Assembly (NCBI RefSeq): GCF_006016075.1 | Contig: NZ_CP040093.1 | Coordinates: 2,893,501-2,957,500, forward strand | Origin: Caloramator sp. E03 | GTDB lineage: Bacteria > Bacillota > Clostridia > Clostridiales > Caloramatoraceae | Length of the DNA: 64,000 nucleotides | Direction: 5' to 3' | Shown: one piece after another, positions 7,327-58,437 of the stretch | How the letters are laid out: each line of letters starts with the position of its first letter | Numbering within the stretch: the stretch's first letter is position 1 | Notes under the pieces: generated by a model | Database searches by the model: none | What the model saw: the letters and a program-made list of their open reading frames with translations, nothing else | Told to the model about the DNA's origin: nothing | Program-made: the position numbers and the translations under genes

Positions 7327-7758
7327 ATGAATCTTGTAGCCTTAACAGGTGCTGGAATATCAAAAGCAAGTGGGATTCCAACATTTAATGAAATGGGAAA
7401 CTTAAGAGAAAAGCTGAGCAGATCATTTTTTGAAACTAACCCTGAAGAGTTTTATAAAATTTTAATTGAAATGAAAGAAAAAATAGAAAGAGCAGAGCCT
7501 AACCCTGCTCATATTGCACTTGCGAAATATAATGTACCAATTATTACAATGAACATTGATGGACTGCACAAAAGGGCTGGAAGTAAAGATGTAATTGAAA
7601 TACATGGGAATTTGGAATATGTTGAATGCCCTAACTGCAATGAGTTATATGATTTTAATATAGTAAAAGAAACTATTTATTGTAAGGATTGTAATAGCTT
7701 GTTTCAACCCAATATTGTCCTTTATGGTGATATAATACCTTTGTTCTTTTGCCATTAA
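7327..7758 (+). pseudogene. NAD-dependent protein deacetylase (sirtuin), 3'-truncated
   Basis: The first about 135 residues are a good Sir2 protein: NAD-binding GAGISKASGIPTF at residue 8, TMNIDGLHKRAG near residue 74, the catalytic His in IHGN near residue 93, and the zinc Cys pairs CPNC and CKDC. After PNIVLYGDIIP near residue 138 the similarity stops and the last residues come from the complement of an IS256-like 5' end. The family needs about 100 further residues with the second half of the NAD pocket, so the product should be inactive. Confidence 0.85.
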
Positions 7759-7850
7759 AGACATTTTAAAAGCCTCCTTCTTGATTATATTTCTAATTGT
7801 TGCCAAGAAGGAGTTTTTTAATTAATTTACACAAAATTATTTGCTGTCTC
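7738..7850 (-). mobile_element. Remnant of an IS256-family element (left end plus transposase start)
   Basis: Read on the minus strand, this matches the left end of the intact copies at 27960 and 44371. The outer 25 bases (7826-7850, TTTACACAAAATT core) share about 20 positions with the intact tip. CCAAGAAGGAG is shared, and a start codon at 7764 begins MSLMAKEQ, like MSLLSKAQ of the intact transposase. Only about 9 codons remain before the sirtuin sequence begins. It differs enough from the intact copies to be a related but distinct element. Confidence 0.65.
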
Positions 7851-7988
7851 CTTTCTTATCAAGTAACCAGAAAAATTTGTTTTCTCAGATCTTGTAAATC
7901 GATTCAACAGCATGATATTTTTCTTTGTTTTAGATTTTGCTATCATATTTACGGTTTTTTGCGATATCGCCCACGAACATAATAACTC

Positions 7989-9274: not shown

Positions 9275-10180
9275 TAAGTTTACCCTCCTTAACATGTCAT
9301 CTTTATGCACTTTACGGTTTACATTATACTATGCTTATTGGTGCTTTTCAATTGATTAAGTTATTGTGCTGCGTTATTTAAAAATAGGTATTGAAACAAA
9401 GAGCTTTGCAATAATTTCAATAGAAAGAATACATAAAATTGGAGTTGTGAGAATCTCAGAGGAAAGCAATAGAAAAGAGCATTCAATTCAATTAAAGCTT
9501 TAGACAAATCATAATAATATATATGTATGAGAATAACAAAAGATAAAAACTGGATAGCCTGAGTGCTATCCATATTTTATTATTTAGTAAAAAAACGTGT
9601 TAAGTAAATAAGTGTATAAAAATATATGCTTTATATTTTTTACCATTAAAAAAACAATTTTGTTAGCATGTCATTCATCGCAGGTGCCTAAATCAACATT
9701 TTTAGTAACTCTATTAGCTATACTTAGAAAAATAGGAACAAATTTTTTGCACTAAGATGCAGAGTATATATATTATATTTTGCAACAAAAATATAATTTT
9801 CAAATTGCTTAGAGTTACAAGTATAATGATAATAGTACCCTTAATCATAGTCTAAATAAGTACTATACCAACAAATGGGATAGTGATGGAAACCGTATAA
9901 TAAGTGAGAAGAATAAGTTTTTATAAGCAAAACAAATTTACTATAAAATGTTGATGATAGAAAAATATTGAAAAAGAAAGTAGAAATATAAATAATTTAA
10001 TAGTAAAATATTAAATAATATGCTTATTTTTTAAAAAAGTCTTGTAAAATTAAAGTTAAAAAAATACTACAAAATAGGCATTTTTAATTAGAGAAATAGA
10101 TAAGCAATTAATAAATAAAACCTTTTATATGATAAAATATAAAGATTATTTTTATTGAAATTTATATTGGTGGGAGAGAA
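9275..10180. other. Long non-coding gap upstream of the exopolysaccharide operon
   Basis: No supported gene. A readable stretch near 9390-9500 on + may be a relic. A terminator lies at 9551-9585. From 9586 on the DNA is very AT-rich. I looked for a cyclic-di-GMP riboswitch ahead of the PilZ-containing operon and did not recognise one. A short inverted pair ATAGTAC / GTACTAT occurs near 9832-9866. The ribosome site GGGAGAGAA precedes ATG 10181. Confidence 0.4.
9551..9585 (+). terminator. Rho-independent terminator-like hairpin
   Basis: TGGATAGC at 9551-9558 pairs with GCTATCCA at 9565-9572 around CTGAGT, followed by a T-rich stretch (TATTTTATTATTT). Confidence 0.6.
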
Positions 10181-10990
10181 ATGAATATTATGTGGAAACA
10201 GAATAAAAATAAGGTTATTCTTATTGGAATAGTTATTATAGCAGCTATTATAGGAATAATATATTGGATAAATTTGGACAAACATCAAAAAAAAGCTTTT
10301 AATAAATTAGAAACAAAATATTACTCAGATACTGAAATTAAAGAGGCTCTTATGAAACTCAATGACAATAAAAAGGCTGAATTGATTAGAGATGTCAATA
10401 TTAAGGATAAGAAATTAGCACTTACATTTGATGGTTTAGCAGATACCAAAACAATGAATAAAATATTAGAGATGCTTGACAAATATAAAATGAAAGCAAC
10501 TTTTTTTGTATCAGGAATAGAAAGTGCTGAAGACGAAGAAACGATTATTTCTATTATAAAATCAGGCCAGGAAATAGGGAGTTATGGTCTTTCAGCCCAA
10601 AAACATATGGAAAAGATGTCTGAAGAGGATATTGTAAGAAACTTTGCTAAGGCAAATGCTATATTTAAAAATATAATAGGAAGAAAGCCGGATATTTTAA
10701 AATGTAATGTTACTCAATATACGGATTCAGTTTTAAAGTCTGCCTATGCTACTGGTATTAATAGTGTTGTAGAAAGTAAGCATTTTCTTAACTTTCAAAG
10801 TTTTACTTCTTATGAGATGGCAAAAGGATATGTGAAAAGATTAAAAAATGGAAGTATTATTTCTATAAAATTAATGGATGTATTGTATAAAGAAGAGTGT
10901 CAAGCAAAAGCAAAGGAAGAAAAACCTGCAATAGACAAGCAGGCTGGATTTATTAATGGAAATGAAAATGCAAAAAAGAAGCAAAAATAA
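10181..10990 (+). pseudogene. Membrane-anchored NodB-fold protein, N-terminal part (frameshifted from the next ORF)
   Basis: One signal-anchor helix (residues 11-29) is followed by a NodB-like domain. The fold markers are there (KLALTFDGLAD, KMKATFFVSG, GQEIGSYG), but the metal Asp-His-His set is not: the second Asp of TFDD is Gly and no HxxxH is seen, so this domain is probably not catalytic. The ORF ends at 10990, yet the +1 shifted frame continues smoothly as KEAKIIKVIEWLLMAIHNQG into the next ORF. One more A in the A6 run at 10972-10977 would fuse both into one protein of about 840 residues. Confidence 0.75.
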
Positions 10991-11013
10991 TTAAGGTTAT
11001 AGAATGGCTTTTA

Positions 11014-12702
11014 ATGGCAATTCATAATCAAGGTTATTCAACAGAATTTGTAAAAAATTTTTCGTATTATCAAGCATTAGAGAATAATAACGTTTACGAA
11101 GTATCAGTACAAAAAAACAATATTAATAGCAAAAATGATACTATTAAGAAAAAAGTTATAAGTAATGAAGTGCATCTTACGGATTATAAGCAGCTGAGAA
11201 TAAAAAATAATGGTAAAAAGGCAAAAATCGTTAAAAATCTATATACAACCCAGCCAGCAGTTGGTTATGTTTTTAGGGGAATATCCAACAAGAAAGTGTT
11301 AGATAATGTCCTTGATATATTAGACCGATTAGATGCAAAGGCTACCTTTTTCGTTACTGGAAAGGAGATATTAAAATATCCGGAAAATGTAAGGGAAATT
11401 GTAAAACGTGGGCATCAAATCGGCAATGGTGGGTATGGCATGAATGTAACCAATCCAAGCCAACTAGATTTTAATGACCTCTGTTATGAAATTGAAATGG
11501 GAAGAAAGTGCCTAAAGGATTTTCTGGGAGATTCATATAAAGATGAAATTAATGGATACTATATGCCATTATATGCTGATGTAAACGAAACCGTATTAGA
11601 AGCAGCTTCAGCGTTAGGTTATAAAGAAGTTGTGATATATAATAAAAATCCAATAAAGAAAGAATATAGAGATTTATCAGCAGATGAAATTATCTCAGCT
11701 TATTTTTCAAATACGATTTCCTTGCATAGAGGAGATATAGTTTATATTCGTTTAGATTATCTGACAAAACTAGGTGCAACAGAGGAGTTGGTTGAAAAAA
11801 TTGCAAACCTTTATATTAAGCCATCTAATTACGAAATAACATCTGTAAATAATCTAATAAAAAGCGATTTAGTTTATGAGCCTACCTCACGTTCAGATGC
11901 AATAGATGCTGATTTGGTAAAAAATACTCATAATCTTACAGATGAATATTTGATGAATATGATTTATGAACGCTATATAGGAAATCAAAGTATAGACTCT
12001 GCTGAAAGATTAATTGGCTTTACAGAAGAAGAAATACAAAAAATAGATAAAGCAGGTAAAATTGATACAAAAGGAGAAAAAGTAATATTCTTAACTTTTG
12101 ATGATTGGGGCTCAGATGAAACAGTTGTGCGATTGCTTAATGTACTGGATAAATATGATGTAAAAGCTACATTTTTTGTTCGTGTGGGGAATGATAGTCT
12201 GACTGTGCAAGATGACATGGGGAACCCTAATCTTTTGCGTGCTATTGCTCTAAAGGGTCACGATATTGGAAGCCATACCTTTGCACATTTTAAGATTGAC
12301 ATAAAAACAGAAGAAGAACAAAAACAACTTAGGGAAGATATTGTGGCTGCTCACAGGGAAATGGCAAGGTATATAGGTGATACTGGTGCTTTAAAACTAT
12401 TTTTCAGACCACCAACCTTAGCAGTTAGTAAACTTGGACTTGAGACTATATTTGATTGTGGATATCAATATATTATAAACGGTGATTTCAGCACCCATGA
12501 CTATGAAGCAGAAAGCGCTCAGGAGCTGATTGATAAATTAATAAACGGAATTGGTAAAAGAAGTATCAGCGAAGGGAGCATTGTTGTTATGCATATGTCT
12601 GACACAAGCAAATTTACGGCAGAAGCTTTAGATGTAGTAATACCTTACTATAAATCAAAAGGATATAGTTTTAAAAAATTAAGTGATTATTTAAAATACT
12701 AA
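11014..12702 (+). CDS. Polysaccharide deacetylase (two NodB domains, the last one catalytic)
   Basis: This ORF carries a second degenerate NodB domain (about residues 60-290) and a third, complete one (about 350-560). The third shows all catalytic motifs: TFDDWGS near 361, SHTFAHF near 418, FRPP near 463 and VVMHMSD near 523. That predicts a metal-dependent N- or O-deacetylase of a surface polysaccharide. The natural start is probably in the preceding ORF (10181), which supplies the membrane anchor and the first NodB domain; ATG 11014 has no good ribosome site. The glycosyltransferase gene follows 36 bases downstream. Confidence 0.82.
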   Translation: MAIHNQGYSTEFVKNFSYYQALENNNVYEVSVQKNNINSKNDTIKKKVISNEVHLTDYKQLRIKNNGKKAKIVKNLYTTQPAVGYVFRGISNKKVLDNVLDILDRLDAKATFFVTGKEILKYPENVREIVKRGHQIGNGGYGMNVTNPSQLDFNDLCYEIEMGRKCLKDFLGDSYKDEINGYYMPLYADVNETVLEAASALGYKEVVIYNKNPIKKEYRDLSADEIISAYFSNTISLHRGDIVYIRLDYLTKLGATEELVEKIANLYIKPSNYEITSVNNLIKSDLVYEPTSRSDAIDADLVKNTHNLTDEYLMNMIYERYIGNQSIDSAERLIGFTEEEIQKIDKAGKIDTKGEKVIFLTFDDWGSDETVVRLLNVLDKYDVKATFFVRVGNDSLTVQDDMGNPNLLRAIALKGHDIGSHTFAHFKIDIKTEEEQKQLREDIVAAHREMARYIGDTGALKLFFRPPTLAVSKLGLETIFDCGYQYIINGDFSTHDYEAESAQELIDKLINGIGKRSISEGSIVVMHMSDTSKFTAEALDVVIPYYKSKGYSFKKLSDYLKY

Positions 12703-12738
12703 AATATTGAAAACAAGCACATTGAAAGGTGAAGTTAA

Positions 12739-14595
12739 ATGAATTTTATTAGAAAAAAAAGAGTTGTAGAAGATGTTTTATTGCAACAGCGAACAGATAG
12801 AAGATTGCTTTCTAATGTCTTAGATAAGAAAAAAAGTCGTACTAATATTGACAGAAGAGGTAAAAAGCTTTCAAGAGATTTTCAAGGGAAAATAAAAGAT
12901 ATTATTGATAGTAAAAAAGAAGGTATACGATACCAAGTCTCATATAATGTTAAGGTAATCTGTTTTAATGAAAATGAGAAGAAGACATTTTATTGTAAAG
13001 CAGTAGACATCTCTGCAACGGGAATATTACTTAATCTTTTCCATAAAGAGAGGCTAGAGTATATAAGCAATGCTTCTAAGGTAATACTAAAATTTAAAAT
13101 ATTACCTGGAACTATGCCTGAAGGCTACGAAATGAAGGTTAAGATAGAGGCACAGGTTGTACGTTCCCAAATAAAATCTGAAAATGAGGTTTTTTGTGGA
13201 CTACAATTTAAAGAAACCTTAACACAGTATGTAAATAATAAAAAAGATCGATTTGTTCTTTTAATATCCAGCATATTGTTATTTTTGATTACAGCATTTA
13301 TAGTACTTATGCGTGCAGAAAGTGTTGTGTATTTCCGTTTTAATAAATATTTATATCTTTATAGCATTATAGCAGCAACCTTTTTGCTTAGCAGGTATTT
13401 GTTTGGTGCAATGTATAAAGCAGTTCCTGTGGATATGGATTATACACCTGGTGTCAGTATTATTATTCCGTGCTTTAATGAAGAAAAATGGATACAAAAA
13501 ACCATTTTAAGCTGTATAAATCAGGATTATCCATTGGATAAGCTGGAAGTTATCATTGTTGATGACTGCTCTACTGATGGTTCTGTAGCAAAAATTAAAG
13601 AAATCGTGGAAAAACTTTATCAAGAAGATGAGTACTATGATACAAAAAACAGAGTTCGCTACTTTGTGCAAGAACAAAACAAAGGGAAAAGAGAAGCCTT
13701 AATAAAAGGTGCTTTGGTGGCTAAACATGATTTGCTAGTTTTTGTTGATTCTGATAGTTTTTTAGATTCTTTTGCAATAAGGAATTTAGTTCAACCATTT
13801 AAGGATCCTAAAATGGGTGGTGTTACTGGAAGAACAGATGTAGCAAACACATTTACTAATGGATTGACAAAGATGCAATCTGTACGTTATTATATAGCTT
13901 TTCGTATTATGAAAGCTGCAGAAGCTTATTTTGATGCCGTTACATGCCTTTCTGGTCCTTTGTCCTGCTATAGAAAGAAGATTGTCTTAGAACATAAGGA
14001 TGAATGGCTGAATCAGAGATTTTTAGGCTGTCCTGCAACTTTTGGTGATGATAGAAGTATGACAAATTTTGTTTTAAGAAATCATAGGACAAGCTATCAG
14101 GATACTGCTGTTTGTTCAACAATTGTACCTAATGATTACGGTGTATTTTTAAAACAACAGATGCGTTGGAAGCGTTCATGGCTGAGAGAATCAATAATAG
14201 CATCAAAATTTATGTGGAAAAAAGAGCCTTTTATGGCATTGTTTTTTTACATGGGACTTTTGGTGCCTATAGCAGCACCGATTGTTGTATTATATAATTT
14301 GATTTATGTTCCGTTGGTGTACAAAATATTTCCTACAACCTTTCTTGTTGGCATATTGATGATGTCTTTTTTAATGAGCGCTGCACAAATGTTTTTGAGG
14401 AAAAGCTCCACTTGGATATTTGGCATGTTGTTTTGCTTTTATTATGAAGTTGTTTTATTGTGGCAAATGCCTATTGCTTGGGTAACTTTTTGGAAATCTA
14501 CATGGGGTACGCGACCGACTCCACAGGATATTATAGAGCAGGAGAAAAAGAATAAAAGAAAGCAAAAGAAAATGAAGAAAGTGGAGGAAAATTAA
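12739..14595 (+). CDS. PilZ-domain processive family-2 glycosyltransferase (exopolysaccharide synthase)
   Basis: The N-terminal soluble part (about 50-155) looks like a PilZ domain with RYQVSYNVKV and VDISATGILLNL (D-x-S-x-x-G); a clear RxxxR pair is not visible, so cyclic-di-GMP binding is unproven. Two helices follow (172-220), then a GT2 domain: SIIIPCFNEEKW near 239, VDDCSTDGS near 272, VDSDS near 333, GDDRSMT near 436 and QQMRWKRSW near 473. The DxD and QxxRW motifs mark processive synthases of the cellulose, hyaluronan or poly-GlcNAc type. Three or four C-terminal helices would form the export channel. Polymer identity is not decidable here. Confidence 0.88.
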   Translation: MNFIRKKRVVEDVLLQQRTDRRLLSNVLDKKKSRTNIDRRGKKLSRDFQGKIKDIIDSKKEGIRYQVSYNVKVICFNENEKKTFYCKAVDISATGILLNLFHKERLEYISNASKVILKFKILPGTMPEGYEMKVKIEAQVVRSQIKSENEVFCGLQFKETLTQYVNNKKDRFVLLISSILLFLITAFIVLMRAESVVYFRFNKYLYLYSIIAATFLLSRYLFGAMYKAVPVDMDYTPGVSIIIPCFNEEKWIQKTILSCINQDYPLDKLEVIIVDDCSTDGSVAKIKEIVEKLYQEDEYYDTKNRVRYFVQEQNKGKREALIKGALVAKHDLLVFVDSDSFLDSFAIRNLVQPFKDPKMGGVTGRTDVANTFTNGLTKMQSVRYYIAFRIMKAAEAYFDAVTCLSGPLSCYRKKIVLEHKDEWLNQRFLGCPATFGDDRSMTNFVLRNHRTSYQDTAVCSTIVPNDYGVFLKQQMRWKRSWLRESIIASKFMWKKEPFMALFFYMGLLVPIAAPIVVLYNLIYVPLVYKIFPTTFLVGILMMSFLMSAAQMFLRKSSTWIFGMLFCFYYEVVLLWQMPIAWVTFWKSTWGTRPTPQDIIEQEKKNKRKQKKMKKVEEN

Positions 14596-28045: not shown

Positions 28046-29251
28046 ATGTCACTTTTATCAAAAGCACAACTAAAAGAATTTATTAAAGAAAATAACATCA
28101 CAAGTGTAGCTGGAATCCAATCTACCCTTAAAGAATTATTTAAAGATGTCTTAGAAGAAATGCTTCAAGCGGAGCTTGATACAACTTTAGGCTATGAAAA
28201 ATATGATGTAAAAAATAAGCAAACCGATAACAGCAGAAATGGATTTTCTAAAAAAACAATTAAAACTGAATTTGGTGAAATGGAAATCGATGTCCCAAGA
28301 GACAGAAATGGCGAATTTGAGCCTAAAATTGTTCCTAAAAATAAAACAGATATCTCTGGAATTGAAGATAAGATAATATCCCTTTATGCTAGAGGAATGA
28401 GCACAAGAGATATACAGGATCAAATTAAAGATCTCTATGGCATAGATATATCACCAGAGCTTGTTAGTAAAATTACAGATCGTATTATTCCAGAAGTTAA
28501 GGAATGGCAAAGTAGACCTTTAGAAAAAATTTATTCCTTTATATTTATGGATGCTATACACTATAAAGTAAGAGAAGAAGGACGTATTCTTAATCGTGCA
28601 GCTTATGTTGTTCTTGGGGTTAACATTGAGGGATATAAAGAAGTTCTTGGTATATGGATAGGAGAAAATGAATCATCAAGATTCTGGCTTGGAGTCCTTA
28701 ACGACCTTAAGGGCAGGGGTGTAGAAGATGTTCTGGTTTTCTGTGTTGATGGTCTCACTGGAATGAAAGAAGCTATACAAGCAGCTTATCCAAAGTCAGA
28801 AATACAAAGGTGCATAATACATCAATTGAGAAATTCATTTAAATATGTTTCATACAAACATCTTAAAGAGTTTACAAAAGACTTTAAAAATGTATATAAC
28901 GCATTGAATGAGGAGGTAGCTAAAGAAAAACTTAAGGAAGTAGAACAGAAATGGGGCTCTCAATATCCATATGCAATTAAGAGTTGGGAAAACAACTGGG
29001 ATGTAATATCACCTTTCTTTAAATTCCCTGATGAAATAAGAAAAATCATGTATACTACAAACATAATAGAAAGTCTACACAGGCAGTTTAGAAAAGTAAC
29101 TAAGACAAAAACTATATTCCCCACAGATTTGTCATTAGAAAAAATGCTTTATCTATCGGTTAAAAATATAGATAAGAAGTGGACTCAAAGGTATAGAAAC
29201 TGGGATATGGTAATCAATCAGCTTATGATAATATATCCGGGAAGAATATAG
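28046..29251 (+). CDS. IS256-family transposase (copy 1)
   Basis: A 401-residue mutator-type DDE transposase. FIFMDAIHYKVREEGR holds the first Asp, VLVFCVDGLTGMKEAI the second with IQRCIIHQLRNS as the C/D(2)H motif, and TTNIIESLHRQFRKVTK the Glu. AAGGAGGAG lies just before the ATG. Intact and identical in sequence to the copy at 44664, so the family has moved recently in this genome. Confidence 0.96.
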   Translation: MSLLSKAQLKEFIKENNITSVAGIQSTLKELFKDVLEEMLQAELDTTLGYEKYDVKNKQTDNSRNGFSKKTIKTEFGEMEIDVPRDRNGEFEPKIVPKNKTDISGIEDKIISLYARGMSTRDIQDQIKDLYGIDISPELVSKITDRIIPEVKEWQSRPLEKIYSFIFMDAIHYKVREEGRILNRAAYVVLGVNIEGYKEVLGIWIGENESSRFWLGVLNDLKGRGVEDVLVFCVDGLTGMKEAIQAAYPKSEIQRCIIHQLRNSFKYVSYKHLKEFTKDFKNVYNALNEEVAKEKLKEVEQKWGSQYPYAIKSWENNWDVISPFFKFPDEIRKIMYTTNIIESLHRQFRKVTKTKTIFPTDLSLEKMLYLSVKNIDKKWTQRYRNWDMVINQLMIIYPGRI

Positions 29252-44371: not shown

Positions 44372-45955
44372 GGAGTGTAAATAAATCTGTGTATTTAGTT
44401 GAGGAGCAACTCCTTCAAGACAAGTTTTAGACTAAATCCAAAAAGATATTTTATTTACTTTCACTACTAATTGTTACCATAAATTAGGTTTTTATGCATA
44501 ATGTTGATTAATTTTGGTTAAAATTTTTATAATGAGTGGGTCTATGTCTATGCATAACAAACTCGCGATTAGAGCATTGTTATAATTTTTGAAGCGAAAG
44601 GAGACCTAGGTCGACTGAAGCTTCAAAAATTTTTTGTTTTTTGTAAATTATATTTAGTATTAGCTATATTCTTCCCGGATATATTATCATAAGCTGATTG
44701 ATTACCATATCCCAGTTTCTATACCTTTGAGTCCACTTCTTATCTATATTTTTAACCGATAGATAAAGCATTTTTTCTAATGACAAATCTGTGGGGAATA
44801 TAGTTTTTGTCTTAGTTACTTTTCTAAACTGCCTGTGTAGACTTTCTATTATGTTTGTAGTATACATGATTTTTCTTATTTCATCAGGGAATTTAAAGAA
44901 AGGTGATATTACATCCCAGTTGTTTTCCCAACTCTTAATTGCATATGGATATTGAGAGCCCCATTTCTGTTCTACTTCCTTAAGTTTTTCTTTAGCTACC
45001 TCCTCATTCAATGCGTTATATACATTTTTAAAGTCTTTTGTAAACTCTTTAAGATGTTTGTATGAAACATATTTAAATGAATTTCTCAATTGATGTATTA
45101 TGCACCTTTGTATTTCTGACTTTGGATAAGCTGCTTGTATAGCTTCTTTCATTCCAGTGAGACCATCAACACAGAAAACCAGAACATCTTCTACACCCCT
45201 GCCCTTAAGGTCGTTAAGGACTCCAAGCCAGAATCTTGATGATTCATTTTCTCCTATCCATATACCAAGAACTTCTTTATATCCCTCAATGTTAACCCCA
45301 AGAACAACATAAGCTGCACGATTAAGAATACGTCCTTCTTCTCTTACTTTATAGTGTATAGCATCCATAAATATAAAGGAATAAATTTTTTCTAAAGGTC
45401 TACTTTGCCATTCCTTAACTTCTGGAATAATACGATCTGTAATTTTACTAACAAGCTCTGGTGATATATCTATGCCATAGAGATCTTTAATTTGATCCTG
45501 TATATCTCTTGTGCTCATTCCTCTAGCATAAAGGGATATTATCTTATCTTCAATTCCAGAGATATCTGTTTTATTTTTAGGAACAATTTTAGGCTCAAAT
45601 TCGCCATTTCTGTCTCTTGGGACATCGATTTCCATTTCACCAAATTCAGTTTTAATTGTTTTTTTAGAAAATCCATTTCTGCTGTTATCGGTTTGCTTAT
45701 TTTTTACATCATATTTTTCATAGCCTAAAGTTGTATCAAGCTCCGCTTGAAGCATTTCTTCTAAGACATCTTTAAATAATTCTTTAAGGGTAGATTGGAT
45801 TCCAGCTACACTTGTGATGTTATTTTCTTTAATAAATTCTTTTAGTTGTGCTTTTGATAAAAGTGACATTAAAAATCTCCTCCTTGTCCTTTTCTCTTAA
45901 TTCTTGCCAAGAAGGAGATACTTAAATCACTTTACACAAAATTTTTTACATACTC
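44371..45955 (-). mobile_element. IS256-family insertion sequence, copy 2
   Basis: 1585 bp, same ends and length as copy 1 but inverted. It is flanked by the direct 8-base repeat AGGCTCTA at 44363-44370 and 45956-45963. It sits at the very end of marR and separates it from the exporter genes. Confidence 0.95.
44664..45869 (-). CDS. IS256-family transposase (copy 2)
   Basis: The 401-residue product is identical to that at 28046. Same DDE residues (FMDAIHYKV, FCVDGLTGM, NIIESLHRQF). Its transcription runs towards marR, opposite to the host genes, so transposon promoters would not drive the exporter. The ABC gene downstream keeps its own GAGGTGG site but has lost the marR promoter unless read-through occurs across the element. 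Confidence 0.96.
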   Translation of the reverse strand: MSLLSKAQLKEFIKENNITSVAGIQSTLKELFKDVLEEMLQAELDTTLGYEKYDVKNKQTDNSRNGFSKKTIKTEFGEMEIDVPRDRNGEFEPKIVPKNKTDISGIEDKIISLYARGMSTRDIQDQIKDLYGIDISPELVSKITDRIIPEVKEWQSRPLEKIYSFIFMDAIHYKVREEGRILNRAAYVVLGVNIEGYKEVLGIWIGENESSRFWLGVLNDLKGRGVEDVLVFCVDGLTGMKEAIQAAYPKSEIQRCIIHQLRNSFKYVSYKHLKEFTKDFKNVYNALNEEVAKEKLKEVEQKWGSQYPYAIKSWENNWDVISPFFKFPDEIRKIMYTTNIIESLHRQFRKVTKTKTIFPTDLSLEKMLYLSVKNIDKKWTQRYRNWDMVINQLMIIYPGRI

Positions 45956-50435: not shown

Positions 50436-50497
50436 TAAATACCTTAAAATAGATAATTTGATTGAGAATTTTTAAATTTAAAAATAAAAAGACCAAA

Positions 50498-50548
50498 ATG
50501 AACAAAAAAGCTCTATTCATTGACATAATTTTAACAACAAAATAAAAT
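50498..50548 (+). promoter_or_regulatory. pplA promoter overlapped by a candidate operator
   Basis: TTGACA at 50520-50525, 17 bases, TAAAAT at 50543-50548, close to consensus. ATGAACAAAAAAG then CTCTATTCAT (50498-50520) lies directly upstream and overlaps the -35. A similar block, ATGAACAATAATAA to CTATTCAT, lies at 51551-51578 before the ndh2-like gene. Confidence 0.6.
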
Positions 50549-50592
50549 GGAATTGTGGACATTAATTATAAACAAAAAATGGGGGGAATATT

Positions 50593-51495
50593 ATGAAGAA
50601 AAGAATTATGTCAATTGTTCTAACTTTGGTCTTTTTAGTAGGTTTGTTGTCAGGATGTGGTTCTAATACTACAAGTGGTAATACAAATAATAACACAAGT
50701 AGCAACACAAGTTCCAACACTCAAGAAACATCTAAACCTAAATATGCAGATGGTATTTATTTTGCTCAAGCAGATGATTTTGATAAAGAGAGCGGATGGA
50801 AGGATGTTGTTACACTTGAAGTTAAAGATGGTAAAATAGTTTCAGCTGACTGGAATGCAGCAAATAAAAATGCAGGTCCTGACAAAAAAACTCTATCAAA
50901 AGAAGGAAAATATAAAATGAAGGAATTAGGAAAAGCTCAAGCAGAATGGCATGAGCAGGCAGCAAAAGTAGAAGCATATTTAATAGAAAAACAGGATCCA
51001 AAGGCCATTACATATAAAGATGCAGAAGGGCATACCGATGCAATATCAGGAGTATCAATTCATGTTATGAATTTCTTTAAATTAGCTGAAAAAGCTTTAG
51101 CTAATGGCCCTGTGCAAAAAGGACCATATAAAGATGGAGCATATCATGCTGAACAAGCAAATTTTGATGCTCAAGGATGGAAAGAAACAGTAGATATTAC
51201 TGTTATAAACGGCTATATTGTTGCAGCGAACTGGAATGCAGTAAATAAAGCAGGTGGAGATGATAAGAAGACTCAATCAGTAAAGGGTACTTATGGTATG
51301 AAGGAAAAAGGAAAAGCTCAAGCAGAATGGCATGAGCAGGCAGCAAAAGTAGAAGCATATTTAATAGAAAAACAGGATCCAAAGGCTATAACTTATAAAG
51401 ATGCAGAAGGACATACTGATGCAATATCAGGAGTATCAATTCATGTTATGAATTTCTTTAAATTAGCTGAACAAGCTTTAAGTCAGGCTAAGTAA
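50593..51495 (+). CDS. pplA: PplA-like flavinylated lipoprotein with two FMN-binding domains
   Basis: Signal peptide with lipobox LLSGC (Cys near residue 22), a Ser/Thr/Asn-rich tether, then two FMN-binding repeats (about 48-170 and 175-300). Each ends in TDAISGVSIHVMNF, which corresponds to the D-x-x-S/T-G-A-S/T flavinylation motif with Val for Ala. Two-domain lipoproteins of this type (PplA of Listeria) carry electrons from the membrane to flavins and iron outside the cell. The repeats share 160 bp at near identity. A terminator follows at 51499. Confidence 0.85.
   Translation: MKKRIMSIVLTLVFLVGLLSGCGSNTTSGNTNNNTSSNTSSNTQETSKPKYADGIYFAQADDFDKESGWKDVVTLEVKDGKIVSADWNAANKNAGPDKKTLSKEGKYKMKELGKAQAEWHEQAAKVEAYLIEKQDPKAITYKDAEGHTDAISGVSIHVMNFFKLAEKALANGPVQKGPYKDGAYHAEQANFDAQGWKETVDITVINGYIVAANWNAVNKAGGDDKKTQSVKGTYGMKEKGKAQAEWHEQAAKVEAYLIEKQDPKAITYKDAEGHTDAISGVSIHVMNFFKLAEQALSQAK
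50931..51471 (+). repeat. Internal 160-bp duplication within the pplA-like gene
   Basis: 50931-51090 and 51312-51471 differ at about 5 of 160 positions, all third-codon and silent, so the encoded stretch is identical. Confidence 0.85.
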
Positions 51496-51498
51496 GTA

Positions 51499-51532
51499 TA
51501 AAAGGGTGTACTGTAATCAGTATACCCTTTTA
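51499..51532 (+). terminator. Terminator after the pplA-like gene
   Basis: TAAAAGGGTGTACT at 51499-51512 pairs with AGTATACCCTTTTA at 51519-51532 (one G-U). Symmetric A/T arms allow use in both directions. Confidence 0.7.
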
Positions 51533-51733
51533 AAGTATAAATTTAATGTTATGAACAATAATAACAAAATCTATTCATAATGAACAAAAGAAGTAAAAAA
51601 ATAGATTTTGATGTACTCTATGATAAAATTTTAACTAAGAGGACATGCATATCTCGCCAATTTTTAGACGTAAACATTAAAATCATTAAATTGCAATTGC
51701 ATTGATATATATCAAATAAAAGGAGGACAAGAT

Positions 51734-53629
51734 ATGGAAGAGAAAAAAAGGATTGTTGTATTAGGTGGAGGGTATGGTGGAGTTTTGACAGCCAAAAAGC
51801 TTGCTAAAAAATTTAAGAAAGATGAAAATGTTGAGATTGCTTTAATTGATAAAAAACCATATCATACTATGCTTACTGAGCTACATGAAGTTGCTGCAGG
51901 AAGAGTTCCTGAAGACTCAATAAGAATTGACTTGAAAAAAATATTTACAAAAAGAAAAGTAGATGTAGTTCTTGATGAAATAGCTGAAATAGATTTTAAA
52001 AATAAATTATTAAAGTCAAATAATAGTTCATACAAATATGATTATTTGGTAATAGGAACTGGATCTAAACCAACGACTTTTGGGATACCAGGAGTAGAAG
52101 AATATACCCATAAGCTTTGGTCTTATGAAGATGCTGTAAATTTGCGTGAGCATATATTGAACATGTTTAGAATGGCAGCCAAAGAAAATAATAAGGTAAA
52201 AAGACAGAAATTGCTAACATTTGTTGTTGTTGGTGCAGGTTTTACAGGTGTTGAAATGATAGGTGAATTAGGGGAATGGAAGGATAGACTTTGTAAAGAT
52301 TTTTATATAGATAAAAATGAAGTTAAACTCTATATTGTAGATGCTCTTCCTAAAATACTTCCTATTTTCCCTGATAAACTAATTAAAAAAGCAGAAAAAA
52401 GGTTAAAAAAATTAGGTGTTGATATAATAACAGGTGCAGCAATTACAGAAGTAACAAAGGATGCAGTTAAATTATCAGAAAATAGGGCTATTGAATCTAA
52501 TACTGTTATTTGGGCTGCAGGTATTGAAGGTTCTGATATTGTTGGAAAAATGGGAATAGAGCAAAAGGGAAGAAAAAGAATAGTTACAAATGATAAGCTT
52601 CAATCTGTAGATTTTGAAAATGTTTATGTGGTTGGTGATAATATATTTTATATCCCTGAAGGTGAAGAAAAGCCTGTTCCCCAGATGGTAGAGAATGCTG
52701 AACACTCTGCAGACCTTGTTGCACATAATATATATGCAGATATAAAGGGCAATCACAAGAAATCTTATAAACCTAAATTCCATGGTGCCATGGTTTGTAT
52801 TGGAGGACGATACGGTGTAGCTCACATAGGAACACCTAATAATTTCTTTATGCTTTCAGGTTTCTTTGCTATGTTTGTTAAACATTTTATAAATATTGTA
52901 TATTTCTTCCAAGTTGCTGGATTTAATAAATGCTGGTCATATATGCTACATGAATTTTTCCATGTAAAAGATAAAAGAAGTTTTGTTGGAGGGCATTTTG
53001 CAAAATCATCTCCAAACTTTTGGCTTGTAGTATTGAGAGTGTTTGTTGGTTATAAGTGGTTAGAAGAAGGATTAAATAAGTTACCAAAGATAATAAATGA
53101 TCCAGGAAAAATTTTCTTAATTCCAGCACCAGTGGCAGATGCATCTTCAGCAGCTTCTGTACAGGCAGCAACAAATACAGCAGTACAAGCAACATCTGCA
53201 GCGTCAGCGGCAGCTTCTAAAGCAGCAGAAGCAGCTTCACAATGGGGGACAGCATTACCAGTTCCTGAGTTTATTCAAAAGATTGTAAAATGGTCCATGA
53301 ATACTTTCTTCTATACTGGAGATGGTGGTTTTACAACCTTAGCACATATTTTCCAAACATGTATGGTTATAGGTGAAATACTAGTAGGATTATGTTTAAT
53401 TGTAGGATTATTTACTGCATTAGCATCGATTATTTCTATTGCAATGGGTACAATGATTTGGGCATCTGGTATGGCACCTTCTGAAATGCTTTGGTATCTA
53501 AGTGCAGGAATTGCTTTGATTGGAGGTTCAGGAAGTACTTTTGGTTTAGATTATTATGTACTTCCAGTTTTAAAGAATTGGTGGAAGAATATTGGATTTG
53601 TGAGGAAGTTATACCTATATGTAGATTAA
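51734..53629 (+). CDS. ndh2: Ndh2-like type II NADH dehydrogenase with C-terminal membrane domain
   Basis: Residues 1-390 form an NDH-2: FAD-binding VVLGGGYGGVLTAKKL, NADH-binding FVVVGAGFTGVEMIGEL near 161, and VYVVGDN near 298. Unlike ordinary NDH-2, about 240 residues follow: a helix-containing part (HFINIVYFFQVAGFNKCWSY, WLVVLRVFVGYKWLEEGLNK), an Ala/Ser-rich linker (about 470-505), and DoxX-like helices (VIGEILVGLCLIVGLFTALA). This layout matches Ndh2 of the Listeria EET system, which reduces demethylmenaquinone for extracellular transfer. AGGAGG site; strong terminator follows. Confidence 0.87.
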   Translation: MEEKKRIVVLGGGYGGVLTAKKLAKKFKKDENVEIALIDKKPYHTMLTELHEVAAGRVPEDSIRIDLKKIFTKRKVDVVLDEIAEIDFKNKLLKSNNSSYKYDYLVIGTGSKPTTFGIPGVEEYTHKLWSYEDAVNLREHILNMFRMAAKENNKVKRQKLLTFVVVGAGFTGVEMIGELGEWKDRLCKDFYIDKNEVKLYIVDALPKILPIFPDKLIKKAEKRLKKLGVDIITGAAITEVTKDAVKLSENRAIESNTVIWAAGIEGSDIVGKMGIEQKGRKRIVTNDKLQSVDFENVYVVGDNIFYIPEGEEKPVPQMVENAEHSADLVAHNIYADIKGNHKKSYKPKFHGAMVCIGGRYGVAHIGTPNNFFMLSGFFAMFVKHFINIVYFFQVAGFNKCWSYMLHEFFHVKDKRSFVGGHFAKSSPNFWLVVLRVFVGYKWLEEGLNKLPKIINDPGKIFLIPAPVADASSAASVQAATNTAVQATSAASAAASKAAEAASQWGTALPVPEFIQKIVKWSMNTFFYTGDGGFTTLAHIFQTCMVIGEILVGLCLIVGLFTALASIISIAMGTMIWASGMAPSEMLWYLSAGIALIGGSGSTFGLDYYVLPVLKNWWKNIGFVRKLYLYVD

Positions 53630-53632
53630 AAA

Positions 53633-53680
53633 TAAAATCAAATATCCTTTTAATAAATTTTAAAAGGATATTTGATTTTA
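53633..53680 (+). terminator. 20-bp perfect terminator hairpin after ndh2
   Basis: TAAAATCAAATATCCTTTTA at 53633-53652 pairs perfectly with 53661-53680 around an 8-base loop; the right arm ends in TTTTA. Confidence 0.8.
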
Positions 53681-53805
53681 ATATTGAATTGATATTTATG
53701 AGAAAAACTTTTTTTGATGTTTAATAAATTATTTAGTAAAATTATATATTGGTTAATGTATAGTCTATTAAAAAAATTTTATGAAGAATTGGTATAGGTG
53801 ATAAA

Positions 53806-54775
53806 ATGAATAAATTTTGGACAAGATATCCTGAAATCGCTGAAGAACTCGAATCTGTAAAAAATATTATTAAAAGCAATTTAAAATCAAGTGACAAATA
53901 TTTCGAACAGTCTATTTTCCCATTGATTGATGCGGGAGGGAAAATGCTAAGACCAGGATTAATGCTAATAGCAGGTAAATTTGGACATTATGATATGGAA
54001 AAAATGCATAATTTAGCTGCTGCAGTTGAAAATGATGCATACTGCAACACTATATACATGATGATGTTATAGATGAATCAAAATTAAGAAGAGGTATAGA
54101 AACGTTGCAGTCAAAATACGGAAAAGCTTATGCAGTTTATTTGTGGGTGATTTTTTATTTTGCAAATGTTTTATAATGCTTTCAAAGTACAATTATTTCA
54201 ACAGAGAATTTAAGAGATATATCTAATGCTATATCAAAAATATGCATGGGTGAAATAAGGCAATATAACATTAGATATTTCTACCCAAGGGAGTATAAAA
54301 AATTATTTAAAAATTATATCAGGAAAGACTGCAGCTTTATTTGCTAATATCTTTATATGTAGGTTCAAAGGAATCAGATTGTAATGAAGATATTTGTAAT
54401 TTATTAGGCAAAATAGGATATTATATTGGAATGGCCTTTCAATAATAGATGACTTGCTGGATTATAATGGAATACTCTGCAGATGGGTAAAAATGCTCAA
54501 AGATGATTTAATTAAAGGTTATTATACACTACCTATTATCTATGCAATGAATGAGGATAAAGAAGGTAAAATTAAAGAATATTAGAAAATTCGGCATTAA
54601 AGGAAAAAACGTAAAAGAAATTATTGGATTAGTTATGAATACAAAGGTATTGGAAAAGGCAAAAAAATTAGCTGATAAATATACAAAAAAAGCCTTTAAT
54701 AATATAGAAAAATTACCAGATTGCGATGCAAAAGAAATACTTAAAGAAGTCACCCAAAAAACTATTAATTCGTAA
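53806..54775 (+). pseudogene. Polyprenyl diphosphate synthase (HepT/DmkB-like), multiply frameshifted
   Basis: Read across frames, the protein is a trans-prenyltransferase of about 323 residues: FPLIDAGGKMLRPGLMLIAG at the N-terminus, first Asp-rich motif HDDVID near 54060, GEIRQYNIRY, then SGKTAALFA, YYIGMAFQ and the second motif DDLLDY near 54445, ending VTQKTINS. At least five indels of both signs break it (near 54010, 54045, 54150, 54215 and 54437). In Listeria EET loci DmkB makes the prenyl tail for the dedicated demethylmenaquinone. Intact motifs despite indels favour sequence error. Confidence 0.78.
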
Positions 54776-54803
54776 TTATTAGTTTAAATGGGGTGGTTTA
54801 ATA

Positions 54804-55166
54804 TTGAAAAGGTTATATATTGTTATTATAATTGTACTTTCTATGCAATTTGCTTCATGTGGAAGTAAAAAAGTTATTTACAAAGAAGGCACTTATTACG
54901 GTGTAGGAGAAGGACATGTTGGCAAAATAAAAATTGAATTAGCAACAGATAAATACCACATAAAAGAAATTAGAGTAATAGAAGATGAGGAAATACCAAT
55001 AATTGCAAAGAAAGTATATGAAATAATACCTAAAAAGGTTATTAAGGCAAATAGTACTGATGTTGAGGTTGTTACTGGAGCAACCTATACAAGTAAAGGT
55101 TTAATAGATGCAATAAATGATGCATTAAAAAAAGCAAGAATTAATAAAGAAAGTGGGCAAAACTAA
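54804..55166 (+). CDS. Small FMN-binding domain lipoprotein
   Basis: 120 residues from TTG 54804 (GGGGTGG about 8 bases upstream). Signal peptide RLYIVIIIVLSMQFASC with lipobox FASC, then a single FMN-binding domain (YKEGTYYGVGEGHVGKIKIE) that ends in a canonical flavinylation site, VVTGATYTSKGLIDAI, where the Thr of GAT would carry FMN. It lies between the polyprenyl synthase and the two-component genes of the EET locus and is probably a second extracytoplasmic electron carrier. Intact. Confidence 0.85.
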   Translation: MKRLYIVIIIVLSMQFASCGSKKVIYKEGTYYGVGEGHVGKIKIELATDKYHIKEIRVIEDEEIPIIAKKVYEIIPKKVIKANSTDVEVVTGATYTSKGLIDAINDALKKARINKESGQN

Positions 55167-55197
55167 TCCATTATTGTAATTTATGGAGTTGAGGAAA

Positions 55198-56771
55198 TTG
55201 AAACTACAGTATAATTAACAATATTTATAAGTTCCATAATTATTTTATATAATTAGTGTATTAGGGGCTTCTTCATATTACATGATTAAACGTTCCATTG
55301 AAACACAAATGGGGAATAATGCTATGGATATAGCTGTTACTATTGCATCTATGGAGAAAATACAAGAGGCATTAGCATACAAAAAGGACTATAATATAGT
55401 ACAAAATACTATAGATTGTTTTTGTGACAAAACGAGGTTTCAATATATAATTGTAATGGATATGAATGGAATAAAATATTCATACCCACGAGGGAAATCA
55501 TTAGGGAAAAATATAATGATGGAGGAGAAGAAAGGGTATTAAAATATGGTGAATCTTATATTTCAAAGGATAAGAATGCTTTAATATCTGCAATAAGAGC
55601 TTTTGTACCTATTTATTATAATGGACAACAGGTTGGAGCAGTTTTAGTTGGACTATTAACAGATACTGTTTATAATGAACTTGCTGCACATATACTATGG
55701 TTTAAAATAACATTAATTGTAGGTTTACTTATTGGAATTATAAGTGCTGCAATCTTAGCCAATTTAATTAAAAAAACTATTTTTGGGCTAGAACCAAGCG
55801 AGATTGCATTATTACTAGGACAAAGAGATTTAATATTACAAAGCATTAAAAATGGTATATTAGCAGTAGATAAAAATGGGAATATATTATTTTTCAATAA
55901 AGTTGCAAAAGATATTTTTAATTTTAAAAATGAGGATATAGGAAAAACATAAATAGTATGAATTTAAAATATGCAGATGAAATGATGAAAGCTTTAATTT
56001 ATGAAGAACCAATATATAATCAGGAAATTAAGATATGTAAGGATAATACATTGATGTGCAGCCATACTTTATTAAAAAATCATAAAAACGAAATTATTGG
56101 AGTAGTTTCAATATTGAAGATTTAACAGATATTTAAAAAGATGGCTGAAGAACTAACAGGAATAAAGAAATGACCTCTGCTTAAGAGCTCAAAATCATGA
56201 ATTTATGAATAAATTACACACAATTTCGGGACTTATACAATTAGAGGAATATGACAAAGCACTTGAGTATATTACGAATATATATATCATCAAAGACAGG
56301 CTGTTTCAGAGATTTTAATAAATAAAATTAAAAACCCCACATGTAGCAGGGTTACTTTTAGCAAAGTATAATAAAGCAATTGAGGCAAAAATATCTTTAG
56401 AAATTGATAAGGATTTAACTTAGAAGAGTTGCCTAAAAACATAAATCCTGATGACCTTTGTTCAATTATAGGAAATTTAGTTGAAAATTCAATAGAGGAG
56501 TTAGTAAAATATGAAAATGGGAAATAATTGTTAAAATAAATTCTGATAGTGAAGGACTAAAAATTAGAGTTCAAGATAACGGCCCTGGAATTGATGATGC
56601 AATAATTGATAAGATTTTTGTAAGAGGTTTTACAACAAAACCTGGTAATAGGGAATAGGACTTAGTATTGTAAAAGAGATAGTTGATTTTGCACAAGGAA
56701 ATATTAACATCATACAGGAAAATGGAGTTATATGGGATATATTTATACCAATGAAAGGAAAATGCCTATGA
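55198..56771 (+). pseudogene. CitA/DcuS-family sensor histidine kinase, multiply frameshifted
   Basis: The pieces, in order: N-terminal helix (ASSYYMIKRSIETQ), an extracytoplasmic PAS-like sensor (QYIIVMDMNGIKYSYPRGKS, SAIRAFVPIYYNGQQVGAVL), second helix (ITLIVGLLIGIISAAILANL), cytoplasmic PAS (LILQSIKNGILAVDKNGNIL), H-box [15 protein letters not shown]-box IIGNLVENSIEEL, and G-box DNGPGIDD / GLSIVKEIVDFAQGN. Many single-base indels interrupt it (for example near 55525, 55950, 56170, 56425, 56655). The stop overlaps the regulator start. The family senses citrate or C4-dicarboxylates; the ligand here is unknown. Confidence 0.75.
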
Positions 56772-57479
56772 TAAAAGTGTTAATTGTGGAAGACGATCCT
56801 ATGGTCATGGAAATTAACTCTAAATTTTTAGAAAAATAGATGGATTTAAGCTACAGGCTTGTGCTAATTCTTTAGAAAAAGCAAAGGAGATACTTTTAAA
56901 GGATGCTCCAGATTTAGTGTTGTTGGATGTTTTTTTCCCACAGGGAAAAGGTATTGATTTATTAAAATGGATACGTTCTGAAAACATAAAATGTGATGTA
57001 ATTTTGATTACTGCAGATAGAAATACTGAAACAGTTGAAGAAGCATTTCGCTATGGTGCAGTTGATTATTTAGTAAAACCGTTTATGTTTAATAGATTTA
57101 AAGAAGCTTTATTGTTATATAAAGATAGAAAAAATAACTTTGAAAACATTGGAAATATTGAGCAAAAGATAATTGATAGATATACTATAAAAGATAGTAG
57201 ACATTTTGAAAATGAAGAAAGCAGTGATATTGAAATATATGATGATATTGATATAAAGGGATTTAATAAACATACTTACGAAAGAATATTACAAGGTATA
57301 AATCAAATGAAGGGAAAGCATTCACATCACAGCAAATTGCAAAGTTAGTAGGGGTATCAAGAATTACTGCAAGAAGATATTTAGATTATTTGGAAAAAGA
57401 AAATAAGCTGGAGATTGAAATGGAATATGGAAAAATAGGAAGGCCAAGAAACAAATATAGAGTAAAAGTTGACAAATAA
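56768..57479 (+). pseudogene. CitB/DcuR-family response regulator, frameshifted
   Basis: ATG 56768 overlaps the kinase stop (ATGA). Receiver: IKVLIVEDDPMVMEINSKFL, phospho-Asp in LVLLDVFFPQGKG near 56925, Thr in VILITADRN, Lys in DYLVKPF. The C-terminal HTH is FTSQQIAKLVGVSRITARRY and GRPRNKYRV. Two indels, near 56838 and 57318, break the frame. The CitB class binds DNA as an activator, so a promoter in this cluster is a likely target; the ATGAACAA..CTATTCAT blocks before pplA and ndh2 are candidates. Confidence 0.78.
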
Positions 57480-57501
57480 AAAATAGAAAGAGGCGATTGA
57501 A

Positions 57502-58437
57502 TTGAAAGTTAGAAGTTTCCTTAAACTAGTTGAAATACAAACAAAAATAGCCAGTGTAATACCTTTTACACTCGGCACTGTTTATGCGTTATATAGATTT
57601 AATACTTTCAATTTAAAAAACTTCCTTTTAATGTTTGTTTCACTATTAACTTTTGATATGGCAACTACTGCGATAAACAATTATTGTGATTATAAAAGAG
57701 CTGTAAAAAAGCACGGATACAACTATGAAATGCATAATGGCATAGTAAAATACAATTTATCAGAGATATATGTTAAAGCTATTATATGTATACTTCTTAT
57801 AATTGCGACAACCTTTGGAGTACTATTGTATTTAAATACAAATATTATTGTTTTAATAATTGGTATAATATCCTTTTCGGTTGGGATATTTTATTCCTTT
57901 GGCCCTATACCAATATCAAGAATGCCTTTAGGTGAGATGTTCTCAGGAATATTTATGGGGTTTATAATAGTATTTCTTGCAGTATATATACATGTAAATG
58001 AAAGCATTATAAGTCTAATGTATAATAATGGGTTTTTAACTTTACAGATGAATTTAAAAGAAGTAATATATATATTTTTACTATCTATTCCAACTATTAA
58101 TTGTATTGCAAATGTTATGCTTGCTAATAATATATGTGATATTGATGATGACAAAGAAAACAAAAGATATACGCTTCCAATATATCTGGGTAAAGAAAAT
58201 AGCTTGGCTATTTTTAAAGCCATGTATTATATAGCATATATTGATATTATATTATTGATTGTATTAAGAATAACTCCTGCTATCTCAATAATAACGTTAT
58301 TAACATTTATTATTATAAATAAAAATATATCTCTTTTCTTTGAAAAACAAACAAAAAGGGATACCTTTGTACTTTCCGTTAAGAATTTAATAATAATGAA
58401 TTTAGTTCAAATAATATTATTAAGTATAATGATATAA
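57502..58437 (+). CDS. UbiA-family prenyltransferase (MenA/DmkA-like)
   Basis: An intact 311-residue protein with about eight membrane helices. First Asp-rich site: AINNYCDYKRAVKK near residue 53; second: NNICDIDDDKENKRYTLPIY near 211, as in enzymes that attach a prenyl chain to 1,4-dihydroxy-2-naphthoate. In Listeria, DmkA is a second MenA used only for EET. Adjacency to Ndh2, polyprenyl synthase and FMN lipoproteins supports that role here; a housekeeping MenA function cannot be excluded. TTG start with GAGGCGATTGAA upstream. Confidence 0.85.
   Translation: MKVRSFLKLVEIQTKIASVIPFTLGTVYALYRFNTFNLKNFLLMFVSLLTFDMATTAINNYCDYKRAVKKHGYNYEMHNGIVKYNLSEIYVKAIICILLIIATTFGVLLYLNTNIIVLIIGIISFSVGIFYSFGPIPISRMPLGEMFSGIFMGFIIVFLAVYIHVNESIISLMYNNGFLTLQMNLKEVIYIFLLSIPTINCIANVMLANNICDIDDDKENKRYTLPIYLGKENSLAIFKAMYYIAYIDIILLIVLRITPAISIITLLTFIIINKNISLFFEKQTKRDTFVLSVKNLIIMNLVQIILLSIMI

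Follow-up and report, generated by a model that had tools for sequence, protein, structure and literature searches.

A putative split flavin-based electron-export system in Caloramator sp. E03 with a candidate quinone-precursor importer and a shared direct-repeat element

The window analysed here is a stretch of 64,000 nucleotides of Caloramator sp. E03 (G000:C1:2893501-2957500, in a genome, G000, of 2.98 Mb assembled as one contig). It contains a flavin-based electron-export cluster (of the flavin-based extracellular electron transfer, FLEET or EET, type) with seven genes located between positions 50,489 and 58,437, all on the plus strand, as a preliminary description of this DNA had proposed. 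The cluster starts with a PplA-like lipoprotein with two domains that resemble the flavin mononucleotide (FMN)-binding domain (pplA, 50593-51495), followed by Ndh2 (51734-53629), a type II dehydrogenase of reduced nicotinamide adenine dinucleotide (NADH) that has a long C-terminal extension, a polyprenyl diphosphate synthase of the HepT/DmkB type (hepT, 53806-54779), a small lipoprotein with a single FMN_bind domain (54804-55166), a CitA-like sensor kinase (55183-56759), a CitB-like response regulator (56768-57476), and a UbiA prenyltransferase of the MenA/DmkA type, which is specific for 1,4-dihydroxy-2-naphthoate (DHNA) in its family assignment (57502-58437). The pplA, ndh2, small lipoprotein and ubiA genes are intact open reading frames, and the frames of hepT, the kinase and the regulator are broken. 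Caloramator quimbayensis (L002) has the same seven genes in identical order; the window Ndh2 shares 85% identity with its C. quimbayensis counterpart and 80% with the Fervidicella metallireducens one. The neighbourhood is conserved, and the lack of conservation that the preliminary description had allowed for is not observed.

Residues 5-397 of Ndh2 match the YjlD-type type II NADH dehydrogenase 9pxk (E 8e-76). The extension is read as a membrane type from its sequence and from a DoxD-like match at residues 541-619, which at 19.3 bits is below the cut-off of 22.7. The Ndh2 and UbiA assignments of the preliminary description stand, the latter with 392 bits to NF004752 (cut-off 289), and so does the canonical TGAT site of the small lipoprotein (PF04205, 48.8 bits, cut-off 22; motif VTGATYTS). 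The PplA-like protein is a two-domain lipoprotein, as described, but it lacks a canonical FMN site. Its FMN_bind score is 18.6 bits (cut-off 22) and its score against the NCBIfam PplA model is 68 bits (cut-off 325); the closest solved chain is 2kzx (E 4e-49). Where 2kzx reads DAISGATIKV, both domains read DAISGVSIHV, so that SGVS takes the place of SGA[ST], and this variant is common to the PplA-like proteins of the window, C. quimbayensis (L002) and Fervidicella (L004). The C-terminal halves of the two domains (window 50593-51495) are nearly identical, which suggests a recent duplication or gene conversion.

The EET genes of this genome are not collected in one locus. A second locus (L022, G000:C1:2555001-2575000; coordinates within this stretch are given below) lies about 373 kb from the window cluster. 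Here eetB (7075-7590, minus strand; PF07456, 174.6 bits) and eetA (7602-7982, minus strand; PF07009, 120.5 bits) adjoin apbE (8292-9359, plus strand; 309.6 bits), the three genes together occupying G000:C1:2,562,075-2,564,359. The genome has one apbE copy, and its product has a lipoprotein N-terminus as judged by eye. Next are genes for a UbiD decarboxylase (MqnL, 9363-10817; menaquinone decarboxylase model TIGR03701, 669.7 bits, cut-off 495.9), a UbiA prenyltransferase (MqnP-like, 10783-11664; TIGR01475 over the cut-off), a UbiX protein (MqnM-like, 11669-12241) and an NMT1-type binding protein (12207-13172; PF09084, 84 bits, cut-off 20.5), with an ATPase and a permease, both named by reading the sequence, after the binding protein. 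The locus also encodes pgFMN, which is 464 amino acids long and combines a PG_binding_1 domain with two FMN-bind-like repeats; these repeats score 13 bits each, below the cut-off, and both contain SGAT.

C. quimbayensis (G012, L070) carries the same set of ten genes as L022. In Fervidicella (L004/L071) a single cluster holds pplA, apbE, ndh2, eetA, eetB, hepT, the lipoprotein, kinase and regulator genes, and menA. In several Clostridium genomes a single cluster contains ndh2, hepT, mqnL, mqnP, mqnM, the genes of the ATP-binding cassette (ABC) transporter, and the lipoprotein, kinase and regulator genes. The content of the second locus and the joined clusters of the relatives indicate that one half of a system of known kind lies in the window. 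The preliminary description noted the absence of eetA, eetB and ApbE, which is right for the window locus and wrong for the genome; its compact version of the system gives way to one split over two loci. It had also considered that the genome might lack ApbE or that the window UbiA might be its only copy, and the second locus supplies both one ApbE and a second, MqnP-like UbiA.

Judging from gene content, neither of the two known routes to the naphthoate nucleus appears to exist in the Caloramator sp. E03 genome, which yet keeps the last steps. It has no PF02621 (MqnA/MqnD) match at E<=0.001, and its best MenD match, at 64 bits, falls short of the cut-off of 244. In seven relatives' genomes no MenD was found over the cut-off, and one had a weak PF02621 match. 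We then extended the counts to 225 genomes of the order. MqnL was found over the cut-off in 36 of them, Ndh2 at E<=1e-60 in 79 (identity from 31% up), the binding protein at E<=1e-20 in 65 and at 200 bits or more in 44, PF02621 in 15, none above 41.3 bits, and MenD over the cut-off in 9. Ndh2 is present in 35 of the 36 MqnL genomes, and so is the binding protein, the exception (G067) having a copy cut by a contig end that scores 90 bits. Among the Ndh2 genomes the binding protein occurs in 34 of 35 with MqnL versus 7 of 44 without it (Fisher P 4e-14, relatedness ignored). Neither MenD over the cut-off nor a PF02621 match was found in 32 of the 36 MqnL genomes. From this pattern we infer that bacteria with MqnL complete a naphthoate made elsewhere and would thus scavenge the precursor.

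Gene neighbourhoods were counted by script for all 36 MqnL places. The mqnP gene was found nearby in 34, ubiX in 32, and the ATPase and permease genes in 32. The place in G108 had been measured from another UbiD, and its printed gene order has all three, which corrects the counts to 35, 33 and 33. Misses at contig ends are those of G106 (mqnP, ubiX and the transporter genes), G017 and G067 (the transporter genes in both); among the other ubiX misses, that of G118 is at the end of the stretch taken and that of G095 is real at this sensitivity. The binding protein gene is within 12 kb of mqnL in 32 of the 36 places, directly after ubiX in many of the places read, and in G016, G213, G017 and G110 it has another place in the genome. 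Of the 35 genomes with both genes, 18 have ndh2 within 15 kb of mqnL. The UbiD/UbiX step fits a 6-carboxylate, and the MenA step fits DHNA. Passages on the futalosine pathway in PMC4746308 underlie this assignment. Linkage leads us to guess that the ligand of the candidate importer is a naphthoate. Two genomes, G214 (C4:365440-370603) and G215 (C1:5745438-5750577), have a second Ndh2 match of 71% identity near MenD; some relatives may thus use one Ndh2 copy with quinone of their own making and another with imported quinone.

The small lipoprotein, the CitA-like kinase and the CitB-like regulator are proposed to form one sensing module. We compared a close clade of 20 genomes, in which Ndh2 has at least 70% identity (the window and Petroclostridium L003 included), with 11 distant genomes, in which it has at most 52%. 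The kinase was found on the stretches read in 18 of the 20 close genomes, in 17 on the ndh2 stretch and in G110 on another contig; in the two others, G103 and G106, the stretches stop at a contig end. No such kinase was present in the stretches read of the 11 distant genomes. In all 18 kinase-bearing clusters, the window included, the match of the small lipoprotein ends at most 72 bases from the kinase start, and the CitA/CitB-type pair belongs to the locus, as had been suggested. The GA[TS]xTS motif of the small lipoprotein is kept in all 12 sequences aligned, and the lipobox cysteine is missing in three (L006, L075, L076). The CitA/CitB architecture is whole in L002, where the kinase has sCache, PAS, SPOB_a and HATPase domains and the regulator has HTH_64; in the window, pieces of sCache, PAS, SPOB_a and Response_reg are matched in broken frames. 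The small lipoprotein gene stands beside both eetA and eetB in Fervidicella L004 and in L076, and beside eetA alone in L006/L073 and L075. The small lipoprotein may be a co-sensor.

A candidate DNA element built of direct repeats was found upstream of several EET genes. Its 9-bp half-site, ATGAMCAAA, was derived from shared upstream words and occurs in tandem. In the window, the candidate site upstream of pplA (50489-50506, plus strand) has two tandem half-sites with 1 mismatch, and the one upstream of ndh2 (51551-51588, plus strand) has three half-sites at offsets 0, 9 and 29, with 1 mismatch in the spacing-29 pair and 3 in the spacing-9 pair; the ndh2 site is kept in relatives with the same module. 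Exact tandem copies precede pplA in L002 and L004, as they do pgFMN in L022 and L070, and a tandem copy with 2 mismatches lies between eetA and apbE in L022 and L070. Spacing-9 pairs with at most 2 mismatches number 18 (overlaps counted) in 316 kb from 14 loci of module-bearing genomes; none was found in 245 kb from 13 module-free loci or in 274 kb elsewhere in the Caloramator sp. E03 genome. Upstream of ndh2, pairs at spacing 29 or 30 with at most 2 mismatches are present in 17 of the 20 close versus none of the 11 distant genomes, and the opposite strand of these upstream regions has such a pair in none of the 31 genomes. Of the remaining close genomes, G161 and G164 have an exact spacing-30 pair just past the 320 bases measured, and G162 has a spacing-27 pair. 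The element is carried by all eight close-clade genomes that stood outside the pattern definition (G096, G098, G103, G106, G107, G110, G111 and G214). The exact triple pattern occurs in 18 of 89 loci (some genomes are represented more than once among them), and L022 has 4 matches with at most 3 mismatches versus 0.32 expected. The signal control suggested in the preliminary description gains support from this shared element, and the CitB-like regulator is the natural candidate to bind the repeats.

The gene content and linkage, the lack of MenD, MqnA and MqnD matches and the conserved element are consistent with a split EET system that has a quinone supply based on imported naphthoate and is controlled by the sensing module through 9-bp repeats tying both loci together; we give this reading a probability of about 0.55. 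The window cluster would be the regulated half of this clostridial system. Electrons would pass from NADH through Ndh2 to a quinol of the demethylmenaquinone type in the membrane, and from there through EetA/EetB and the FMN proteins (the PplA-like protein, the small lipoprotein and the cell-wall-binding pgFMN) to an acceptor outside the cell. Attachment of FMN would fall to the one ApbE, encoded in the second locus. Soluble naphthoates would be imported, at least one of them by the ABC transporter that adjoins the UbiA/UbiD/UbiX set, and then prenylated by the MenA-type enzyme with HepT of the window and by the MqnP/MqnL/MqnM-like set, that is UbiA/UbiD/UbiX, of the second locus. The regulator would act at the repeats upstream of pplA, ndh2, apbE/eetA and pgFMN and would link both loci. 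More tentatively, and with somewhat less confidence than an even chance, we speculate that many Clostridiales run EET on a quinone that these bacteria are unable to build de novo, that a kit for importing and finishing a naphthoate (the NMT1-type importer and the MqnP/MqnL/MqnM-like enzymes) comes with the gene set, the compound perhaps being 1,4-dihydroxy-6-naphthoate that other microbes release, and that in one clade an FMN-lipoprotein/CitAB-type sensor switches the set through the 9-bp repeat.

Several observations weigh against this reading. On the side of electron transfer, covalent FMN on the PplA-like protein is uncertain because SGVS departs from the [S/T]GA[S/T]-like motif reported for ApbE in passages of PMC8238504. 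On the side of quinone supply, the searches for naphthoate routes covered MenD and PF02621 (MqnA/MqnD); of the 36 MqnL genomes, 2 have MenD and 2 match PF02621 weakly, at 37 and 41 bits. Nine of the 44 binding-protein genomes are without MqnL over the cut-off, two of them (G107 and G121) having a broken one. No correction for shared ancestry enters the presence counts or the P value, and the list had been inspected before the 200-bit line was set. The best MqnP model gives the UbiA of L022 332 bits, under its cut-off of 430. The named relatives of the binding protein are of the SsuA/NMT1/THI5 type, and a structure model for the binding protein from three relatives has a predicted local distance difference test score of 42 and was not used. 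As for the element, 1 of the 18 spacing-9 pairs (in L003) does not adjoin an EET gene, and the window alone has 3 matches with at most 3 mismatches versus a shuffle mean of 1.30 (16 of 100 shuffles reach 3), which is not clearly above chance.

Alternative explanations concern both the state of the genes and the role of the system. What the preliminary description says of a polyprenyl synthase, a kinase and a regulator in the window is confirmed in part; it did not see that they are not open genes and consist of frame-broken pieces. Their longest stop-to-stop pieces are 95, 174 and 174 amino acids, respectively, versus 323, 528 and 235 in the intact C. quimbayensis counterparts, and relatives carry all three genes intact. 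Alignment with the L002 genes gives 29 out-of-frame gaps (14 in hepT, 13 in the kinase, 2 in the regulator), all within window 54029-57319. That these are true recent pseudogenes, so that quinone-tail synthesis and the sensor were lost from a decaying EET locus, appears unlikely. The density of the gaps speaks for decay, since a coding-frame scan covering 294 kb of other parts of the genome gave 7 unexplained switches; this is a rough figure, as the scan is insensitive to dense breaks (4 switches within 53.7-57.5 kb versus the 29 gaps found by alignment) and also gives false positives (it flags 2862, 3310, 10974, 14561, 19957, 20014, 49551, 60707 and 61800 elsewhere in the window, mostly near the ends of open reading frames). 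Substitutions at codon positions 1, 2 and 3 show a flatter pattern on the window branch in hepT (22, 13, 35 versus 17, 11, 64 on the relative's branch) and in the regulator (14, 12, 30 versus 9, 2, 42), with first- and second-position changes somewhat raised, a pattern that may partly come from misalignment beside the gaps. The kinase, by contrast, keeps the third-position bias of a functional gene (29, 16, 78 versus 33, 14, 90), and the three broken genes read in the relative's frame have no substitution stops in 1089 codons. No out-of-frame gap was found in pplA, ndh2 or the small lipoprotein gene, and ubiA has two 4-base gaps of opposite sign. The gaps are of 1 base in 27 cases and of 2 bases in two, and 12 of the 29 touch runs of at least 4 bases, as read errors might, although this enrichment is weak (24% of columns as a control measured as for the breaks, P 0.047; an earlier value of 17% used one sequence only). 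We strongly favour a local consensus error in the assembly over gene loss, because long-standing decay would leave many more changes at codon positions 1 and 2. Two same-strand open reading frames at L023:8992-10280 of the same genome look like one gene, presumably of the sulfhydrylase type, split by a frame break, and one of the 7 switches of the scan falls here, at 9468; the EET region is thus not the sole break in this assembly. In the Fervidicella draft the frames of pplA (L004:6665-7569) and ndh2 (L004:8995-10886) are interrupted as well.

With respect to the role of the system, the preliminary description suggested that EetA/EetB may be replaced by the small FMN lipoprotein. The window locus lacks eetA and eetB, as do the stretches read of L005, L007, L008 and L077, but both genes lie beside apbE in the same genome, in 4 of the 18 kinase-bearing clusters (L071, L073, L075, L076) the lipoprotein is accompanied by eetA, whether or not eetB is there too, and it tracks the kinase rather than the absence of EetA/EetB. 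Given the genes in the genome and their coexistence with the lipoprotein in relatives, we reject replacement as very improbable. The ABC importer might instead bring in a flavin or another vitamin-like compound, with the naphthoate being made inside the cell by some other route. Several vitamin precursors are carried by binding proteins of the NMT1 type. Flavin transport proteins are part of the FLEET locus in other Gram-positive bacteria, according to passages of PMC9888254. A flavin importer would be expected to follow Ndh2 or ApbE; the gene for the binding protein instead directly follows ubiX in many of the places read, and among Ndh2 genomes the protein goes with MqnL and not with Ndh2 alone, which leaves flavin import a minority possibility in our view. 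It is also rather improbable that the chain respires a dissolved acceptor, fumarate- or urocanate-like, and not minerals or electrodes. A gene named from its sequence as a reductase with FMN and flavin adenine dinucleotide, of the fumarate/urocanate reductase-like kind, comes after the regulator in L006 (15459-17213), L075 (18486-19501) and L076 (18840-19501, these last two cut by the stretch end), with element-like pairs upstream that have 2 mismatches in L075 and L076 and 3 in L006. In the window, L002 and L004 the regulator is not followed by such a gene, and pgFMN, the cell-wall protein encoded in the second locus, points outward. A dissolved acceptor and the split system with imported naphthoate do not exclude each other.

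A NapH-like gene at L024:6181-7449 (G000:C1:743000-755000), with Fer4_5 and FMN_bind (63 bits), encodes a likely further ApbE target, and an open reading frame of 190 amino acids at L023:5540-6112 (G000:C1:225000-236000) has an FMN_bind match. The latter is within L023:3412-8439, which we take to be an apparently complete Rnf operon. The only other PF00348 gene in the genome besides hepT, at L025:5404-6276, has neighbours that we assume to be xseB/dxs-like and is probably a housekeeping farnesyl diphosphate synthase. An Rfam scan of the window, L022, L002 and L004 gave nothing at the gathering score. Two open reading frames of 401 amino acids in the window (28046-29251 and 44664-45869), presumably transposase-like, are on opposite strands about 15 kb apart, with the first 50 residues identical.

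The system is a known kind of EET system, and its import part is both the most interesting and the least proven. Microbes are expected to exchange quinone precursors. Uptake pathways in a quinone auxotroph with EET are expected and yet to be identified, according to passages of PMC10746273; PMC4746308, in the parts consulted, calls for prediction and testing of quinone-precursor importers, and no such importer had been described by 2017, as stated in a part of PMC5738691. Among the matches listed, literature titles and abstract starts contained no naphthoate importer in clostridial EET loci, with subscription papers mostly outside this coverage. Where a genome is without the early steps, a binding protein linked to the enzymes of the quinone tail is a direct importer candidate, and if the assignment is true, the ABC importer would be a long-sought quinone-precursor transporter. 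How electron export is controlled in Gram-positive bacteria could readily be tested with the shared promoter element.

The FLEET locus of Listeria and Lactiplantibacillus comprises Ndh2, PplA, EetA, EetB, DmkA, DmkB and FmnA/B, as described in PMC9888254. The system of Caloramator sp. E03 shares with it an Ndh2 with a C-terminal extension, a PplA-like protein, a MenA-type DmkA, a HepT-type DmkB (frame-broken), and EetA, EetB and ApbE elsewhere in the genome. Unlike FLEET, it is split over two loci and has an added lipoprotein-kinase-regulator module, an MqnL/P/M-like cassette and an NMT1-type ABC importer, and unlike the FLEET PplA its PplA-like protein is without SGA[ST]. L. plantarum is a quinone auxotroph whose EET depends on outside DHNA, as described in passages of PMC10746273. 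Here, too, no complete naphthoate route was found by the searches made and the late prenylation genes are retained; in contrast to L. plantarum, an importer and a second tail route of the UbiA/UbiD/UbiX type are linked to EET genes. The MqnP/MqnL/MqnM set of the futalosine pathway, as presented in parts of PMC4746308, resembles the UbiA, UbiD and UbiX homologues found here in one run, with MqnL over its equivalog cut-off. In the gut genomes treated in those parts of PMC4746308 these genes occur only together with the Mqn pathway, whereas no MqnA/MqnD match was found in 34 of the 36 MqnL genomes and a weak one in 2. The sensor pair resembles CitA/CitB (DcuS/DcuR, DpiBA) in its sCache, PAS, SPOB_a and HATPase domains and its HTH_64 regulator (L002); unlike CitA/CitB, it is partnered by an FMN lipoprotein and EET genes, with no citrate genes seen alongside.

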